Source: a virus. From it: 24,101 nucleotides of DNA. Position numbers and translations under genes: made by a program. The stretch lies in the IMG/VR virus record IMGVR_UViG_3300012036_000024, positions 1 through 24,101 of that record; one strand, 5' to 3'. Under the pieces are notes generated by a model. That model was not told the DNA's origin. It ran no database searches and worked only from the letters and a program-made list of their open reading frames with translations. How positions within the stretch are numbered: position 1 is the stretch's first letter; each line of letters opens with the position of its first letter. This document shows, one piece after another, positions 4,461 through 23,853 of this stretch.

Positions 4461-5366
4461 CTAAGATAAAGTAAGCTTAGCAGCTGATTTGATGTTGGCG
4501 ATAACCATACCAATAGTTTCGTAAGCTGATAAAGTTACTACGTTTCTCTTCTTATCTATGTCGAACTTAGTATCGTTAAGGATACAAAACTCGCCTAAGA
4601 ATTCTGGTGCTGTGAAGGAGTAGATCGTATTTGCTAGCAAGTCTGTCTTGTTAGAAATGATGATTCTACGGCCATAAAGTGTAGGATACTTAAATCCATT
4701 AATGGCGATTTCTCCTTTAAGAGCTCCGTCTCCAAATGTTCCTTGAGTATTGTTGTTAACAATAAGTCTGTTGAACATTTTGTTATCCATAAGCAAGGTT
4801 TCAGTTTGAAGCTGCTTACCGTCGATTTGATCAAAGAGTTCTCTGATTTTCTTCTCTGGTACTGCGTCGGTTGTACTGTCGTAATTCCCTGTAATCGCGT
4901 TGCTTGAAGCTGTGATAGCTGCGTCAATGTGGTTTAGGAAAGCTTCATCCTCAATCTTCTGAATGTCAAGAACACTATTCTGCTCGATTACCTGTGTTAA
5001 AGGCATTCTGTAGGCAAGTAGTTCTTCTTCAGTCTTCTGAAATTCTTCAGAAGAAATGGCGTGGAAAGCTAGTTCGATTCTTTTACCTTCCATGTAGTTA
5101 GTAGTTGGCTTACCGCGGAAGTTTACTAACATAGCCTTAGAGTCTGGCTCTAATTCTACGATTTTAACTACGCCGTCATGATTTACAGAAACCTGTAAGT
5201 CTGCCTGGCTAACGTACATTGGTGGCAAGATTTGTCTCGCAAACGAGACTTCTCTTAGTTTGTCTCTAACAAAAGCTGCGCCTTCGTTAGCTACTTTTTG
5301 CATTCCTTCGTTGGTGTCTAACCTTTTAAGAAATACGTCATTAATTGTTTTTGCGTCTATACTCAT
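4461..5366 (-). CDS. Major capsid protein, HK97-fold type
   Basis: A 301-aa protein. Visible features are an N-terminal helix-rich region (residues 1-40), an RGKPTTNY / YMEGKRIEL strand region near residue 90, a long helix around NSVLDIQKIEDEAFL and a C-terminal VVTLSAYETIGMVIAN strand typical of the HK97-fold P domain. Residues 22-29 read MQKVANEG, a K-x-A tag like those near the protease, so the N-terminus may be trimmed during maturation. It contains no tryptophan at all, hence no TGA. It follows the decoration-like gene by 18 bp, has the strongest ribosome site in the window (AGGAGGT at 5383-5377), and is followed by a strong terminator, all consistent with the most highly expressed virion gene. 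It ends in TAG. Confidence 0.85.
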   Translation of the reverse strand: MSIDAKTINDVFLKRLDTNEGMQKVANEGAAFVRDKLREVSFARQILPPMYVSQADLQVSVNHDGVVKIVELEPDSKAMLVNFRGKPTTNYMEGKRIELAFHAISSEEFQKTEEELLAYRMPLTQVIEQNSVLDIQKIEDEAFLNHIDAAITASSNAITGNYDSTTDAVPEKKIRELFDQIDGKQLQTETLLMDNKMFNRLIVNNNTQGTFGDGALKGEIAINGFKYPTLYGRRIIISNKTDLLANTIYSFTAPEFLGEFCILNDTKFDIDKKRNVVTLSAYETIGMVIANIKSAAKLTLS

Positions 5367-7148: not shown

Positions 7149-7155
7149 ACCTCCT
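7149..7155 (-). promoter_or_regulatory. Strong ribosome binding site of scaffold-like gene
   Basis: AGGAGGT lies 12 nt upstream of ATG 7136 and overlaps the TAG stop of the protease fusion gene. It matches the capsid ribosome site, so scaffold and capsid probably share high translation. Confidence 0.75.
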
Positions 7156-9073
7156 AGGAAGTTAGTTCGTTATAGATTGTATTTATTGTTTCTTCGTTCA
7201 GGTTGCTCATGTAATTTGATCTTTTCTCGAAAGTTTCTGCTGTTTTGGTAGTAAAGGATTCTCTAATTTTGGGATCTAAATCTTTACTCTTAAACCATTT
7301 TTTAACCATTCCCCCTTCATCTTTTTTTGCAATCGCTTTGGCCGAAGTTCTCATTTGTTTATATAAACTTCGTCCTACTACACTTGTAGTGAAAGCAGTG
7401 GCTAAAGGGTTTTTTCGTACTACGTTTTCCATCCCACTTATAGGTTCTCCTCTCTGTGCCTTTTCTTCTAATTTCGCACTTTGGTAATAACTTAAAGGAG
7501 TGGCCACTGCCATTGTTCCTATAAATTGAGGTACTCCTGCTTCTTTTGTTAAATGTCTTGGAGCTAGTGGTCGGGGATTAGAGTACTCATTATAAGAAGT
7601 GCCGGGAACATGCCCCATTTGCATAGTAGGACTATCTTTAAAATCTTTTTCTTGCTTGGTCTTAATACCGTAAGCTATACCGCCCGCTGCAATAGGAGCT
7701 ATTCAAGGATGCTTTCCTATAAATCTAGTAAATTCATCTACATTAGCTGACTCTCCAAAAAGTCTAGCGTAACCGGCATATAAAGTTCCAAGTGCAAACA
7801 TTGGTATAAAAGGGTCCTTAACAGGATTTAATTTAGGCTGCTCTTCCTCATCAAATAAAAGTTTATTGATAAAAGATCTTTCTGTAATTCGGTCTTGAGA
7901 CGAGTTAGGTTTTAATCCAAGTGCTCTAGGTTCCAAGGGAATAAAAGCAGCCCTCTTCTCTAGAATTCTATTGATTATATTTGTCTTTGTCAAGCTTAGC
8001 GAAGGAATTTCTTCTTTTATTTCATTTGCTATCTTTTCATTACAATAATCTATACCTATATCATCTGGTATCTCTTGTTTAAAATCGGCCGTACAATCAA
8101 ATACAACACCTTTTTGTTCTAATAAATCAGCGTCTTCTCTTTTTCCCATAGAATAAAGAGCCAATTTTTGAAAGTCTTCTTTTTTAGGTAGTATTCTTAA
8201 ACCGAGGAAGGTGCTAAGGGTTTCATTTAAAGGGTATTGGGCTAGCTTCTCTATAGCTTCTTGACTTAAATTTCCTTGAGTGCTTTTAATAAGACCTTTT
8301 GGATCTGTAGTTAATCATTCATTAGGTGCCTTAGGTTCGTCTACAAAAGACGCAGTTTTTTCTAACGTCTGTTGCATAGGAAGGTGAAGATTTTTAGCTA
8401 CTTTTTCTAGCCCTAAGGAAGCCATAAATCCGCTAACAGGATCAGCTGGGATAGTAACTAAGGATAAATCGAAAAATCTAGGCTTTAAATTTAAAGCACA
8501 AACTCTACGGCCATCTTTTAGGATAGCCCCCATCATGTTTTTTAAGTAGTGGCTATACTCATTACGAGTCTTTGCTTTTTGGCCTGTTATGGAGCAAACG
8601 TCATAAGGGACTTTGCACCCCATAGAAGTTTTTGGCAGTCTACCTTGCAGCAACTCTTTTATAATTTGAATAACATCTGGGTGATCCTCTTTTAGTTTAA
8701 CTACAAGTTCCACTCTTTTCATGTGGTCATTGTAATTAGAGAAGATGACCCTACCCATTGCTTTTTTAGGATCTTTATTTTGGTGATGCTTATAAACATG
8801 GCCGTATTCTTCAAAAGTTTTGTGATGAGCTTTTAAAGCTTCTTCTGGAAAATAGTCTCCATTTCTATTGGGGCCGTAATATTCTCCAGCACTTAGCGCA
8901 TTTACTATAGCGTATAAATAACCGTTCTCTCTTTCTAGGGAATTGATATACCTTTGCAGGTCTTCGTCAAAGGACGCAGTTTTTTCAAGCCCCTCGTTTG
9001 AGGAGAGGTCAATAAACTTGATAACTTCACTATTGTTATCTCCGTAAACGTACTCTGCTAGTTTATCAATCAT
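7154..9073 (-). CDS. Prohead protease with long C-terminal extension, TGA read as Trp
   Basis: With TGA as Trp (W253 in PNEWLTTD, W457 in KHPWIAP) three frame-sharing fragments become one 639-aa protein. Residues 40-235 form the prohead serine protease: GEYYGPNRNGDYF, then YGHVYKHHQNKDPKKAMGRV (candidate His) and PKTSMGCKVPYDVCS (candidate Ser), then RFFDLSLVTIPADP. LEKTASF occurs at residues 29-35 and again at 237-243, bracketing the protease domain. The extension (253-639) is helical, with ILEKRAAFIP, a Gly/Ala-rich segment after W457 (PIAAGGIAYGIKTKQ), LTKEAGVP and KTAETFEK. Phage proheads mature by proteolysis of scaffold and capsid; this arrangement suggests self-release from both flanks. 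Internal starts at 8164 or 7624 could also make separate products. It ends in TAG. Confidence 0.75.
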
Positions 9074-9556: not shown

Positions 9557-10537
9557 TTAAAATGCCCTACTTTTATTTCTTCCTGGTATTTGTTTCTTTT
9601 CTAATTTAGTATTTTTAGTCTTCTCTCTGTTAGCTCCATAAGTAATTCCAGCTGTTCCCGCTATTGTAGGCAAGGCTATGTAAGGATTATTTTTTGTAAA
9701 GCTTAGTAATCCTGTAAATCCTTCCCACCCCCATCTAATTAAGCCTTTTTCTTTAGCTTGTTTTTCTATTAAATTATCTCCTAGGTTTTCGATAGCTTCT
9801 TCCATTTCAGCTTTCTTTTCTAGTAGTTCCACCGTCGTTTCTGCTACCTCTCTTGCAGCTTTAACTAAAGGATTGGCTGTGTTTATTTTTCTAGAAGCGT
9901 GTTTTGTTAAGTCATCTGCATCGAAATCTATAAAATCTTTTTCTAAATGAGAGGCTAGCTTCTTAATATAAAATTCGTTTAAAGGTTCCCCAGTCCCTTT
10001 TGATATAGCTGCTTGTATGTGGTCCACTGGGATTCCTGATAAAGCTGCTTGTTTGGTTAAAGAATAGAGGGGGTTAAATTTCTTTTCTAGGGAGGCTGAT
10101 AAGTCTAAAAGATCTCTGTTAAGTTTGTCTACATGGTCTCTTCTTATTGAAGCTTCCTTATAAAGGGTTTTTTCGTCCTTAACAGGCTCTTCTTCTTCGT
10201 AGTCGTAAAACGAGGCTTCTTTTAAAAAGTCCTCGTTATCTTTTACAGGTGGTGTAAAGTAGTCTTCTTCGGAAGAAGCTTCCTTCACTACTAAAGGAGT
10301 CTTAACCTTAGTAGGGTCTGCTAATTCAAAATTTATATAAGCTTCATTTTTTGCTGTCTTTAAAAACTCTAAATGAGTCTTTATATTAGCAGTCTCAGCT
10401 ACTCTATCTATCTGATTTGGATTTAAACCGTTATCATGAGCTACTTTTTCAAGCCCTTGAGTTAAGGGGATCTCTCTATTTAAAAAGTCTTTTGAGACTC
10501 GTTCTCCTAGTTTTTGCAGTTCTTTCGGCTGTATCAT
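9557..10537 (-). CDS. Virion protein dense in K-x-A tags with C-terminal membrane-like segment
   Basis: A 326-aa protein. At least ten tags are spread along it: LEKVAHD, FLKTAKN, VVKEASS, FLKEASF, LYKEASI, LTKQAAL, IKKLASH, LTKHASR, LVKAARE and IEKQAKE. This is the highest density in the window. The N-terminal part (GLNPNQIDRVAETANI) is helical. Near residues 285-303 it has ALPTIAGTAGITYGANREK, the Gly-rich segment ending in Tyr and Lys. It is transcribed from a promoter-like site whose TATATT ends 5 nt before the ATG, and no ribosome site is visible, so the mRNA may be leaderless. It ends in TAA. It could be a scaffold-like core protein or the precursor of several peptides. It does not resemble a portal. 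Confidence 0.55.
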   Translation of the reverse strand: MIQPKELQKLGERVSKDFLNREIPLTQGLEKVAHDNGLNPNQIDRVAETANIKTHLEFLKTAKNEAYINFELADPTKVKTPLVVKEASSEEDYFTPPVKDNEDFLKEASFYDYEEEEPVKDEKTLYKEASIRRDHVDKLNRDLLDLSASLEKKFNPLYSLTKQAALSGIPVDHIQAAISKGTGEPLNEFYIKKLASHLEKDFIDFDADDLTKHASRKINTANPLVKAAREVAETTVELLEKKAEMEEAIENLGDNLIEKQAKEKGLIRWGWEGFTGLLSFTKNNPYIALPTIAGTAGITYGANREKTKNTKLEKKQIPGRNKSRAF

Positions 10538-10572: not shown

Positions 10573-12933
10573 TTATAATAAAAATTTGTTTAAATTGTTA
10601 GAGCTTAAAGACATTAAGGACATAACAGCAAATATAGTTGCGTGTACAAAATCATCTGGCCCCGTGTTAACAAACTTCTGTGTGTTTTTTACTTCATCAA
10701 ATTCTATGATTACGTTTCTTATGTCTTGAGCTATATCAGAAATGTCTTCCCAATGAGGTAGCCTTAAATGCCCCCTTTTTAACATATCAAAGTACTTGGT
10801 CATAACGTAATTCCTGTTAAGAGTAAAAGCTCTCATTTTAGAATTATATTTAAAGATTTCTTTTTGAGTATGGATGTGCTGAAAAGCTAAAACCTTTTCT
10901 GGGCCTAGTCTGGCCCTGAATTCACTATTAGGAGCTTCGCCCATACCGTAATCAGCCGCTAAAACTCTACAATTCCATTTTTTGATTAATCTTGGAATTT
11001 CTTTATGTATAAAAGCGTAGTCTGCTTCCTTCCCTAAAAACTTTTTAGCGTAGACTACTTGCATTTTACCCTCCCTTTCCTGTACTATACTTATGCACGT
11101 ATGGGAAGCGTCACTATTTACAGGTCCGTAATCTATTCCCATAACACTTAACCTTCCTAGTTGGCCCCTATCAGGTTCGTCTTTCATTCTTACTTGGCTG
11201 TTACAAGCTCGGATAACTTCATCCTTGCTTATAGGGATGGCTCCAGCATCATACTCAAGCCCTAAGGTTTCATTATAGAATAAAGCCGTGGAAGTGTTTT
11301 CCATTTTATAGATAACATCCTTCTCCCATTTAACCCAAGGTGAGTGAGCAAAGTGTAATAAGCAAACTCTATAACCTTCTAATTTAGGCTTATCTTTATT
11401 ATGCATGTAAGTGCTAACCCATTCTCCTTTATCTATACGAAGGTCTAAAGGCTCTCCACTTTTCTTATCTATTAGCCCAGTTCTTCCTATATTATCAGGG
11501 CCTAAGATATTCCAATACCCGCTTACAGAGCTCTTTACTGCGTATTCATACTGTGTGCTTCTGAACCACAGATCGGCTAATGTTCCTTTAGTTCTTTTTG
11601 GGGTGCCGGCATAAACATTTTTCTTAATAAGGGATCTTGACATAGTTTCCTGAATAACAGTGATAACGTCCTTAAGTAGATCCTGAGTTTCATCAAAATA
11701 GTTATAGTCAGCACTAATACCTCTAATCCTGTTAGCGTCTAATAAGGCGTATTTTAAATCTATTCTGCTTTGATTAGTGAATTTCTTTTTTAAAACATTC
11801 TGTACTAACTTAGGGCTTACGTATTGATTATAAATTAAAGGGCTATTCATGATAACCGGCTCTAATTTAGAACGGCTAAATTCCTGAGTCTGAGCTACGG
11901 AGGGGCTAACGTAAAGCTGGCCGCTATCGCCATGCATCACAGCCCTGGACATCATAATATTGGCTAGTGTAGTACTTTTAGCTGTGTTATGAGTAGCTAG
12001 ATGATCTATGTAAAAAGTGTGTGTGTCTTCGACTTCTATGCCAGTAGAAGACTTAAGTCCCAGAGGTTTAATTTCTTCTATAGGATCATAATAGAAATCT
12101 TTAACAATTTCCTCATAAACCGGCTCTAGTCTTTTTAAAGGAGAGTCTTTTATAAACGTGAAAATAAACCTTTTAGCGTTTATTACATCTAAAGTTATAG
12201 CTCCTGTAGGCTCCCAATAAATCTCACTTTTAATTTTATATCTTAAAAGAATAGCTTCTATAGCCTTTATCCAGTCTAAATCTCAAAGAGTTACTTTAGC
12301 TGTTATAGCGTAAATGCCTACGTGCCCTTCATACTTAAACATAGCTTGCATGAAAGCTTTTAACTGTGTATGATTATAATTATAAAGCTCTGGGAATATA
12401 GGGTCCCCACGTTCGTAAGCTTTTACCTTTCCTTTAATGTCATTGAAACGAGCTTTAGGGGGCTCTATACTTTCCTCTAGCACGCACTCATTGTTATGAG
12501 AAGTAGCTATTAAATCTTTAGGGAGGAGGTCTTCGGCTTTTACTCAGCCTCGTTGAGTAAGAAAGGGGTGATTAAAAGTTACTTGAGCTTTGTGGCCCAT
12601 AGAGGTTTTTATAAGGAAGCTTTCCTGCTCTCCATTATCTCAAACATCTTTTATAGGTTTTACTTTATTAACAAGGGAGACTTCATCTAGAGTTACTAGC
12701 TTGTCCCCCTTTTTTAGCTTTTTAGCTTTTTTGGTTTGGCCATTCCAAAGATCCATAGGCTGATCATCTACTACGCACTGACGGCTAAACTTCATAACAA
12801 TGTCCTGGGCTGGACTGTTATAAATGCGCCTCATGTGCGGATAATCTTCTAAGGAAAAAGGCTCATTACCTAAATAAAGAAAATTTTCCGTAAAGTCTGA
12901 TATAGTTAACTCTACTTGCTTTTTCTTAGCCAT
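10573..12933 (-). CDS. terL: Terminase large subunit precursor containing an intein
   Basis: The precursor is 786 aa; removing the intein leaves about 522 aa, normal for TerL. The N-extein ends IVMKFSRQ and the C-extein starts TAKSTTLANIM, which together make the Walker A motif SRQTAKSTT. Further on are Walker B SADYNYFDETQDL (DE at about 414-415), the coupling motif YAGTPK (443-446) and the RNase H-type nuclease acids in MGIDYG (D601), LAADYGMG (D661) and GPDDFVHA (D760/D761). TerL pumps DNA into the prohead and cuts concatemers. The three in-frame TGA codons are all inside the intein; the exteins use only TGG for Trp. The gene overlaps the bS21 gene by 8 bp, so they are translationally coupled. 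It ends in TAA. Confidence 0.92.
11986..12777 (-). mobile_element. Intein in TerL Walker A, with decayed LAGLIDADG-like region, TGA read as Trp
   Basis: A 264-aa intein (precursor residues 53-316). It begins with Cys (CVVDDQPMDLWNG; later LKKGDKLVTLDE). Block B is VTFNHPFLTQRGWVKAEDLL, where the W of GWVKA is a TGA codon. It ends VEDTHTFYIDHLATHN followed by extein Thr, giving block F, the C-terminal His-Asn and a +1 nucleophile. Splicing restores the ATP-binding loop. Between blocks, LKAFMQAMFKYEGHV (191-205) resembles one LAGLIDADG helix of a DOD homing endonuclease, with Glu and Gly retained. A second copy is not evident, so homing activity is probably weak or lost. TGA codons are at 12640-12642, 12544-12546 and 12283-12285; without TGA decoding no terminase would form. 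Confidence 0.92.
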
Positions 12934-15396: not shown

Positions 15397-16170
15397 TTAA
15401 CTTATTTTACCTGTATTTTTAGTTGTTTTTTCTAATAAACTTTTTCCTTTATTTATATCACTGGCCGTTGGTATAGGTACAGCGAGTGATGCTGCAAATC
15501 CCGCTTTAGCCGACTTGCCTTTTAAAGATCCTCCAAAACCACCTTTTAGAAAGTTTTTCATTCTACCTCCAGAGAAGGCTGATTTAACCCATTTACCAAA
15601 TATATTAAGCAATCCAAAGCTGGCAGCTTTCTGTAATTGATAAGATTTAACCGGTACGTATTTTTCTTTTCGTATACCTTTTGGAGGCTTACGGTTTATA
15701 AACTCTTCCACCAAGTTATCTATAACCTCACCAGTAGGTCTATGTCTTTGGGTCTGCCCCACTCCTTTAAAGCTATCCGTATGATAATAAGAAGGTAATC
15801 TTTGCTTATACCCTCCTGGGTTCTTCATCATTAGTTTTAAAGAAGCTGTTTTCTCTTTAGTTTTCTCTTTATTTTTACGATCTATTAAATAAGCAACGCT
15901 TGTAAATACCGGAAATCCTACTGCACTGGCTAAAGTACCTTTTCCTATCTTCTTAGCTATAGTTTTTACATGGTCCCCCCTGCTTAATACCTTGCTACTA
16001 CCGCTCTGAGCCTTTACTATAGAAGTGTCTAGAGGATGAGTTACTGCTTGAACAACAGCCCCACTTACCCCTCCGGCAATCATATCTTTTTTAAATTCTT
16101 TAAAGAATTTCTCCTTTTCTTTCTCGCTTCGGAAAAATCCTTCCCCATTCTTAGCTAGTTTAGACAGCAT
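15397..16170 (-). CDS. Hypothetical virion-type protein with two hydrophobic segments
   Basis: A 257-aa protein starting MLSKLAKNGEGFFRSEKEKE. Residues 32-55 (AGGVSGAVVQAVTHPLDTSI) and about 77-95 (GKGTLASAVGFPVFTSVAYL) are hydrophobic, the second followed by IDRKNKEKTKEKTASL. The combination HPLD-x(4)-K plus a second hydrophobic helix ending in Tyr weakly recalls one repeat of mitochondrial carriers, but I do not claim homology. Tags are LSKLAKN, EKTASLK and LQKAASF. The C-terminal part is Gly-rich and basic (GGRMKNFLKGGFGGSLKG). It overlaps the upstream gene by 16 bp. An AAGGGGG ribosome site precedes the ATG. It ends in TAA. Confidence 0.5.
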   Translation of the reverse strand: MLSKLAKNGEGFFRSEKEKEKFFKEFKKDMIAGGVSGAVVQAVTHPLDTSIVKAQSGSSKVLSRGDHVKTIAKKIGKGTLASAVGFPVFTSVAYLIDRKNKEKTKEKTASLKLMMKNPGGYKQRLPSYYHTDSFKGVGQTQRHRPTGEVIDNLVEEFINRKPPKGIRKEKYVPVKSYQLQKAASFGLLNIFGKWVKSAFSGGRMKNFLKGGFGGSLKGKSAKAGFAASLAVPIPTASDINKGKSLLEKTTKNTGKIS

Positions 16171-21816: not shown

Positions 21817-23853
21817 TTATTTCTTGGATTTATTCTCTTTTTTAAGTTTTAGGGCTGCATTATATTGAGTGTGAGCGCTTAAGGAATTTAAAGATCCTCC
21901 TAAAACTCCTGATGTCAGCCCTCCTACGATACCAATCCCCTTACTTAAGCTTCTTTCCGGGGAACCACCAGTATCCTTAATAAACTCTTGTCTCGCATTT
22001 TGTAATTCGGGTGCGTCTTCAACAAATTTTTCTATAAACCCTGGATCCCGCTTTCCCGTACTCTTATATTTACCATAAGACTTTTCTGAAGTTGTAACAA
22101 GGTTTGTAGTATCATCTACTAGTTTAGTAGCCCTTTTAATTTTCTTTAAACTTTTGATTGCCGCCCTGGGATTTAAAACTTGTAAGGAATCCTTTGCCCC
22201 TTGCCTTAAATAACTAGAAAGCTCTGGTGCCCTCCCTTTAACAGCTTTTGCAACTCCTGCTAACCCGGCAGCTGAAAGCCCTGTACTAATAACAAAGCCC
22301 CCTAAAAACCCTCCAACGTTTCCTGCAGCTTTATGCTTAGCATGGCCTTTCTTGTTATTAGTAGCATTGTTAAAGGTTATAACCCCTGTTGGGTCTATCC
22401 CCGCTCCAAAGTCTTGTAAAAAATTTGTTTCTTTATTTTGATCCTTGGCTTCTTTTTTCATGTGGCGGCTTTTGTTCTCTCTCCCTATAAGCTTTAAACG
22501 ATAATCTTTCTTTTCCATTTTTTCGCTTCTTAGTTCTTTAAATATTGGAGCTTGAAATAACCCACTGCGGTGTTTATGTTGAGCTTGTACTTTAGCTCAC
22601 TGTCCTATAAACGCGTTTGGGTTTTTAAAAGCTTCTTCTCTGGTTTTATCATCCAATCCGCTTCCGAATTTTATCTCTTTTGCAGATCCTTCAGGGATTC
22701 CTTTAAATCCTCCTACACCTTTTCCTTCATATTTAGACCCAGGCTTTGCTGGGTAGGTGCCTGTTATTTCTACGTCAAAGTCTTTTTTCTTTTTTACTTT
22801 AATAGGAGTGTTACTGTTCTTAGGGTAAATTACTATTCCTTCCCTTGTTAAAGGGTTAGACCCCATTTGAATCTCTTTTAGAAGATTTTTCTTTTCTTGT
22901 TTAGAGTAAGCTAAAGGAGGTAATTTAAGTTCATTGAACGATTCCTGTACTTCTCTAAGCATTTGAAGCTTTTCCTTGAAAGACTTATCTTCTACATTCT
23001 TTCCTTTAAATTTAACTACGTCAAATATTCTAAGGTCAAGCGGTCTCTTCTTTTTTTGAAGTTCCCGGGACTTAGGTACACTAGAATTCAACACTCTGCT
23101 AGTCTCGCTACCTTTTTCTCCTGGTACGTAAAGTTCCGCTCTTAAAATAGTTTTTCCTAAAGTCTTAGGACTAGTCTTTTTCCATAGCTGGGTCTTAAAC
23201 GTATGGTCTATTAAATCCTCGCTTCGTTTACTCTTTCTATAAGAGAATACATCAGGTCTTTTGTTTGGTCTTAAAACTACTAAGTTATGAGCACCATCTA
23301 GTTTAGGCGACCATACTTCGTTATCAGAGCTTTCTTCTGGATCTATTTTATCAAAGTCTTTATTAGAATAGCTTTTTTTATAAGAAGGAACGTCTTTATA
23401 AGCTTTAGACTTTTTATTAGGAGTGTAGTTGTAAAACAACCACTCGTCACTTCCCGGCTTTTTTAAGAGTATATACCTTTTAGTGCTATTCCCTCCGTGG
23501 CGATTGAATTCTATCTTTGAATCTCCCGCTTTTAAAATATCTACTTTTTCCCTTGCAATAGACCTTACAGTGCCTTTTCCGTAGCCTTTTTCTATAGTAC
23601 CACTCCAGCCCATATAATTCCTTGTATGGTCGTTAGTGCGTACTGCAGTAGTCTTTACCCCAGATCCTGGTAGCTTTTTAGTAGCCCAGGAATACGCTTT
23701 GGAGGACCCTGGAGGAGAAAGTCTTATGTCATAGTGAAACCCCGCCCTATCAGCTGTATGCGCTTGAATATTTAAATCTCATTCGCTATTCTCAGCTCTG
23801 GGTATAGAAGTTTTTTGACCTTTTTTAGGTATTCCGGGTGCGTATTCGGGCAT
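21817..23853 (-). CDS. LigD-like 3'-phosphoesterase / ATP-dependent DNA ligase fused to a virion-type tail, TGA read as Trp
   Basis: One 678-aa protein across two TGA codons (W25, W419). Residues 25-95 match the LigD phosphoesterase domain: IQAHTADRAGFHYDIRL (H32, H40, D42, R44), then NDHTRNY (H76, Y80), then GTIEKGYGKGTV. H40-D42-R44-H76-Y80 has the spacing I recall for the Pseudomonas LigD active site. The ligase follows: nucleotidyl lysine in SPKLDGAHN (K184), LRAELYV (E240), REGIVIYP (about 338-343), IKVKKKKDF (351-359) and an OB fold with FGSGLDDKTREEA, FIGQW and SGLFQAPIFKELRSEK. From about residue 446 a basic, Gly-rich tail carries MKKEAKDQ and GGFLGGFVISTGLSAAGLAG. LigD enzymes clean and seal DNA ends. 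A start at 22518 could make the tail alone. Confidence 0.82.

Follow-up and report, generated by a model that had tools for sequence, protein, structure and literature searches.

Domain organization of the PE-ligase

The window analyzed here is a 24,101-base stretch of an uncultured phage (IMG/VR record IMGVR_UViG_3300012036_000024). Read from position 23853 to 21817 on the minus strand, it encodes a single frame, P0001, that joins a 3'-phosphoesterase (PE) domain, an ATP-dependent DNA ligase and a basic, Gly-rich tail (Table 1). Translation with table 11 breaks this frame at two TGA codons, at residues 25 and 419. The first-pass annotation, which drew on sequence features alone, had one TGA read through as sense inside the OB fold; this holds for residue 419, where two relatives (L091 and L038) encode W with no in-domain TGA of their own, while the second codon, at residue 25, had gone unmentioned. 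When all TGA columns of the window are pooled, W is the commonest aligned residue (41), supporting a TGA=Trp reading in these genes. A second assembly, IMGVR_UViG_3300012267_000400, carries the same fused frame at 99.6-99.8% nucleotide identity to the window, and we regard both the domain assignment and the fused frame as secure. In the related 210-kb record G003, an array of 26 tRNAs, one with a CTA anticodon, lies with a tmRNA at 100001-140000 (L131, L132); the sole tRNA-Trp has the anticodon CCA, yet TGA encodes Trp in the late genes.

Table 1. Features of the window discussed in the text, with their positions.
Feature	Position	Strand	Support or remarks
PE-ligase-tail ORF (P0001)	21817..23853	-	678 aa with TGA=Trp; same frame in L002/G005
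In-frame TGA as Trp, residue 25	23779..23781	-	Trp commonest aligned residue (32 homologs)
LigD-type 3'-phosphoesterase domain, residues 27-142	23428..23775	-	Pfam LigD_N, PDB PE matches, alignment
ATP-dependent DNA ligase core (nucleotidyltransferase + OB fold), residues 180-445, K184 nucleophile	22519..23316	-	PHROG_114, motifs, AlphaFold, Foldseek
In-frame TGA as Trp, residue 419, in OB fold	22597..22599	-	Ligase motif VI downstream; W here in L091 and L038
Basic Gly/Ala-rich helical tail, residues 446-678	21820..22518	-	Homologs in L116 and G004; mostly low pLDDT
K467-E468-A469, candidate prohead-protease site between ligase and tail	22447..22455	-	Aligns with N-terminal FHKSA of L116 tail gene
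196-aa protein, FKKEANF motif, next gene after P0001	21225..21815	-	
SNF2-family helicase, 463 aa	19834..21225	-	Homolog of Arash gp217, 40% identity
Large terminase, intein-interrupted	10573..12933	-	Pfam Intein_splicing, PHROG_675
326-aa head-operon protein, 11 K-x-A motifs (0.6 expected)	9557..10537	-	Homolog of Arash gp220
Putative prohead protease, 8 K-x-A motifs (0.76 expected)	7154..9073	-	PHROG head maturation protease, 8.1e-6; homolog of Arash gp222
Major capsid protein, K-x-A near residue 25	4461..5366	-	PHROG_2522; homolog of Arash MCP

The N-terminal region had been proposed to be a LigD-type 3'-phosphoesterase with its catalytic set in register. A profile search returned Pfam LigD_N at 37-41 bits (cut-off 31.1), phmmer against the PDB retrieved the PE structures 3p4h (3e-8) and 3p43 (9e-8), and alignment places H32, H40, D42, R44, H76 and Y80 in the expected set, all in agreement with that proposal, which a PE-region profile search with no LigD match would have refuted. 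The residues of H-x-A-x-R-A-G-x-H-x-D-x-R were part of our search pattern and are invariant by construction, so independent conservation comes only from the ligase residues and from H76 and Y80, neither of which is in the pattern and which are invariant and at least 90% conserved, respectively, among 36 aligned homologs.

The ligase core is matched by the phage ATP-dependent DNA ligase profile PHROG_114 over residues 166-475 (E=1.5e-26), with Pfam DNA_ligase_A_M at 18.7 bits, under its cut-off of 26.2. K184-x-D186-G187, E240, E338-G339 and K352/K354 are present and invariant or nearly so across 36 aligned relatives, and motif VI (residues 434-445) is present in a divergent form (QAPIF). Structure prediction, a check suggested with the first-pass annotation, gave AlphaFold pLDDT above 90 across most of residues 21-440, and the top Foldseek match was T4 DNA ligase on DNA (1.1e-12). 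The claim of an ATP-dependent ligase with all main motifs is thus borne out by profile, motif alignment and predicted fold.

P0001 shares with the LigD of bacterial NHEJ (PE-LIG-POL or POL-PE-LIG) the PE catalytic set, the ATP-ligase domain and the PE-then-LIG order, but differs from it in several respects. It has no POL domain by Pfam, its ligase core is best matched by a phage ligase profile, and its PE motif has a two-residue insertion, H-x7-H in place of the H-x5-H of LigD. Against the NCBIfam LigD equivalogs it falls far below the cut-offs (TIGR02777, 37.8 vs 144; TIGR02779, 22.2 vs 227.75). POL was above cut-off in 0 of 43 related records, and a POL-PE arrangement was found in two IMG/VR relatives (L015 and L027). 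The absence of a Ku gene from the window, remarked on at first pass, is upheld by a Pfam search, and widening that search found none in the 43 related records, many of which are fragmentary. As it has no POL domain, no Ku was found in the 43 records and the equivalog scores are so low, P0001 is not LigD proper.

Distribution and domain partners of PE-ligases

Scanned with a degenerate DNA pattern of the PE motif, IMG/VR yielded at least 119 matching stretches. Among the matches listed, these amount to at least about 96 PE loci, at least 55 of which also encode this ligase domain. Queried with P0001, 50,697 phage records yielded ligase-domain matches only, in vibriophages, and a PE-only query of cultured phages found no match. 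In cellular genomes, most matches to the motif pattern were Acetobacteraceae LigD or stand-alone PEs of archaea; phage-type PE-ligases numbered only three, all in MAG contigs, and a single-protein scan of cellular genomes found no relative. Given this cellular spectrum, PE-ligases with both domains are chiefly phage enzymes, widespread in uncultured phages. A quick PE tree (121 columns), from which we use only this grouping, placed the window with G004, L037 and L038 (support 98).

In relatives the PE domain, alone or together with the ligase, is fused to 2H/LigT, histidine phosphatase, DUF192, GNAT, ASCH plus topoisomerase IB, SNF2, and RNA ligase plus RNase H. Long frames of high GC content that contain numerous TGA codons (L003, L012, L097) were not scored as fusions. 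One frame combines PE, ASCH and topoisomerase IB (L020:3794-6838, +), and the tail of another PE-ligase (L105:2807-5089, -) has an HExxH-like segment (MIAHEAGHAKIHG). Two records have open frames of 13,617 and 14,712 aa, L067 (G001:C1, PE at 85043-85357) and L053 (G002:C1:288398-332533). In the L067 frame, one polypeptide combines RNA ligase, PE and RNase H with a minor-tail (tape-measure-type) domain of phages; the remainder gave no Pfam match above cut-off. In L053 the PE lies inside a similar giant frame.

Partners such as 2H/LigT, histidine phosphatase and RNA ligase with RNase H would suit an enzyme of RNA or mixed end repair that heals 2',3'-cyclic or 3'-phosphate ends left by host anticodon nucleases or other RNases. 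We consider this improbable for P0001, whose ligase is of the DNA type by both PHROG_114 and closest folds and whose partner is an SNF2 helicase.

Three of 21 large records encode a separate NAD+-ligase as well as the PE-ligase, which argues for a special role of the latter in these. In most large records no NAD+-ligase was found, so the PE-ligase may have a replicative role there; in G003 no second ligase was found.

Fusion history of the tail

The first-pass annotation described a virion-type tail fused to the ligase. The basic, Gly/Ala-rich helices and K467-E468-A469 are indeed present, but the fusion is peculiar to this lineage. Homologs of the tail are separate genes in L116 (4.7e-39), where the gene begins just after the ligase stop, and in the 69.7-kb record G004 (8.1e-14), where it encodes 380 aa. 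The G004 ligase (621 aa) bears an in-frame tail of its own that is unrelated to that of the window and showed no homology to G003 proteins. In G003 the ligase is 439 aa long and has neither tail nor K-x-A, and many other family members stop right after the ligase core. Since the tail is a separate gene in two relatives, is replaced by a different one in G004 and is absent in G003, the window arrangement is best explained by a recent, lineage-specific joining of neighboring genes and would therefore not represent the general build of such ligases.

Might the fusion not be one working protein at all, being an assembly or sequencing artefact or a tail translated from an internal start? Two in-frame ATGs near the junction (M446 and M465) could give a separate tail product, and the separate tail genes of L116 and G004 are in keeping with that idea. 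We nevertheless judge it very unlikely, as the second assembly keeps the fused frame despite small sequence differences and the G004 ligase also bears an in-frame tail.

A candidate prohead-protease site

P0001 contains one K-x-A against 0.92 expected; this single copy is not above chance, and we rejected it as a stand-alone signal. A better argument comes from its correspondence to the tag of the L116 tail gene: the N-terminus of that stand-alone protein, MLPFHKSA|AKDSS, sits where the window has HMKKEA|KDQN, and FHKSA occurs twice in it. The K-x-A that had been described as a tag within the tail is present, but we read it as a candidate cleavage site where the ligase meets the tail and not as a retained tag.

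Across the group, the pattern is far stronger. Among about 340 spaced residue pairs behind a hydrophobic residue, [hydrophobic]-x-K-x-A ranks first in the proteins of the window (44 vs 15.3 expected). It also ranks first in the head-gene region of Salmonella phage Arash (47 vs 15.1) and again in the tails of PE-ligases (27 vs 11.8 overall; 15 vs 3.5 in the first 80 aa), whereas in ligase cores it is depleted (rank 322 of 330). A stricter count gave 25 in tails against 8.2 expected (0 of 1000 shuffles) and 8 in cores against 19.3; for these counts tails were cut at the first TGA, recoded contigs excepted. K.A pairs without the flanking residue showed no enrichment, which points to the importance of the hydrophobic position two residues earlier. 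Proteins especially rich in the motif are the putative prohead protease, the 326-aa head-operon protein and small acidic head proteins, a pattern that Arash shares.

This distribution looks like that of the prohead-protease site of this phage group, by analogy with SPN3US. As with the T4 internal proteins and with gp53/gp54 of SPN3US (PMC10052503), a short recurrent site is found in head and cargo proteins along with N-terminal tags. The SPN3US site is A-x-E (PMC10052503), while the candidate here is hydrophobic-x-K-x-A.

Gene neighborhood and the SNF2 helicase

P0001 is encoded in the operon of the terminase and capsid genes, upstream of the terminase, and G003 and G004 show synteny here. An SNF2 helicase is encoded by the second gene downstream of the ligase. 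Among the matches listed, PE-ligase and SNF2 genes are on the same strand and no more than 3.3 kb apart in all 11 loci in which both were found, and in two of these the proteins are fused, in both orders. Arash (OQ632216, PMC10585845) is a distant, cultured relative with homologous capsid, terminase, protease, SNF2 helicase and K-x-A, but differs in that no PE match was found in it. MS of purified particles identified the Arash helicase, gp217, by 38 unique peptides; the 1148 spectra assigned to it compare with 1333 for the capsid protein (PMC10585845 Table 2). The particles also held many metabolic enzymes, and the authors allow for carry-over of abundant proteins (PMC10585845).

Late proteins of these phages show further recurrent features. 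In G003 a short tag resembling MDKAxFIFEKIA is common to the helicase and several neighbors, in most of them at the N-terminus. The tag occurs eight times in that genome, seven times at 179-187 kb, around a ligase that is itself untagged. One tagged late protein (G003:182921-183985) has a segment that by eye is DnaJ-like. A 933-aa SNF2 protein (L038:2662-5463, +) has K-x-A directly behind the helicase core, at 457 and 472, and again farther along, as ligase tails do. Proteins encoded at 15397-16170 of the window (-) and at G003:179436-179732 resemble one mitochondrial-carrier repeat and carry K-x-A; the former scores 22.1 bits with Pfam Mito_carr, against a cut-off of 22.3. The terminase intein of the window lies near the Walker A region, and the G003 and G004 terminases are also long (891 and 829 aa).

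A probably packaged end-healing and sealing enzyme

For P0001 we infer a course of events that includes substrate, cleavage, packaging and timing, with packaging supported by the motif statistics, the late-gene neighborhood and the SNF2 homolog detected in Arash virions. Expressed with the head genes, the protein would enter the prohead, and in this lineage the fused tail would assist its entry. The prohead protease would free the ligase from the tail at MKKEA|KDQ, after residue 469, and the freed ligase would remain in the head alongside the SNF2 translocase until both are injected together with the genome. There, the PE domain would convert ends bearing a 3'-phosphate or 3'-ribonucleotide to 3'-OH, and the ligase joined to it would seal the nick or end, mending nicked or damaged incoming DNA or circularizing the genome without Ku. 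The substrate specificity and timing given here follow established LigD biochemistry.

The main rival is an intracellular late enzyme that heals and seals nicks in concatemers before terminase packaging, stays out of the particle and is fused to a virion protein merely as a matter of co-expression. Late-operon ligases could act before packaging, and the position of P0001 ahead of the terminase within one operon, the untagged G003 ligase, the many tailless family members and the large records in which no NAD+-ligase was found all fit such a role. Two findings speak against an unpackaged enzyme, which we consider rather unlikely: the enrichment of K-x-A in the tails of diverse PE-ligases with its depletion in their cores, and the linkage, in two loci as a fusion, to a helicase with a homolog that is abundant in virions. 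Packaging of the PE-ligase is likely, by a modest margin of confidence, and P0001 is on balance a phage end-healing and sealing ligase that probably is packaged with the helicase, freed from its tail by the prohead protease and active, independently of Ku, on incoming DNA.

Such a protein would have company among known phage systems. Polyvalent proteins, such as P1 DarB, are multidomain, lie beside late genes, include SNF2 helicases and 2H domains and presumably enter the cell along with the injected DNA (Iyer et al. 2017, PMC5512222). P0001 fits this build, with PE, ligase and tail in one polypeptide beside terminase and capsid genes and larger fusions in relatives, but the module here is a PE-ligase, with 2H in some relatives. 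The text of that study does not mention LigD, and it reports that the 2H domains it covers never associate with RNA ligases (PMC5512222). Mycobacteriophage Corndog likewise uses NHEJ-type parts and recircularizes its injected genome, but brings a Ku-like protein (PMC4351075), whereas here there is a PE-ligase and no Ku was found.

Implications

Gene neighborhood, fusion partners and the cleavage-site motif suggest that many such phages carry the PE-ligase in the particle and inject it with their DNA. More broadly, and more tentatively, a large group of uncultured phages may pack an SNF2 translocase and a LigD-like PE-ligase in their heads, trimmed by a K-x-A prohead protease, as an injected, Ku-independent end-joining system for genome repair or circularization at entry. 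The proposed K-x-A site offers a sequence handle for predicting head cargo across this group, and Arash, as a cultured relative, lets both the site and the helicase be tested. Little is known of how incoming phage DNA with nicks or blocked 3' ends is made ready for replication, a task generally expected to fall to enzymes of the host or to newly made ones. If our reading is true, a particle-delivered PE-ligase would put repair at the moment of entry.
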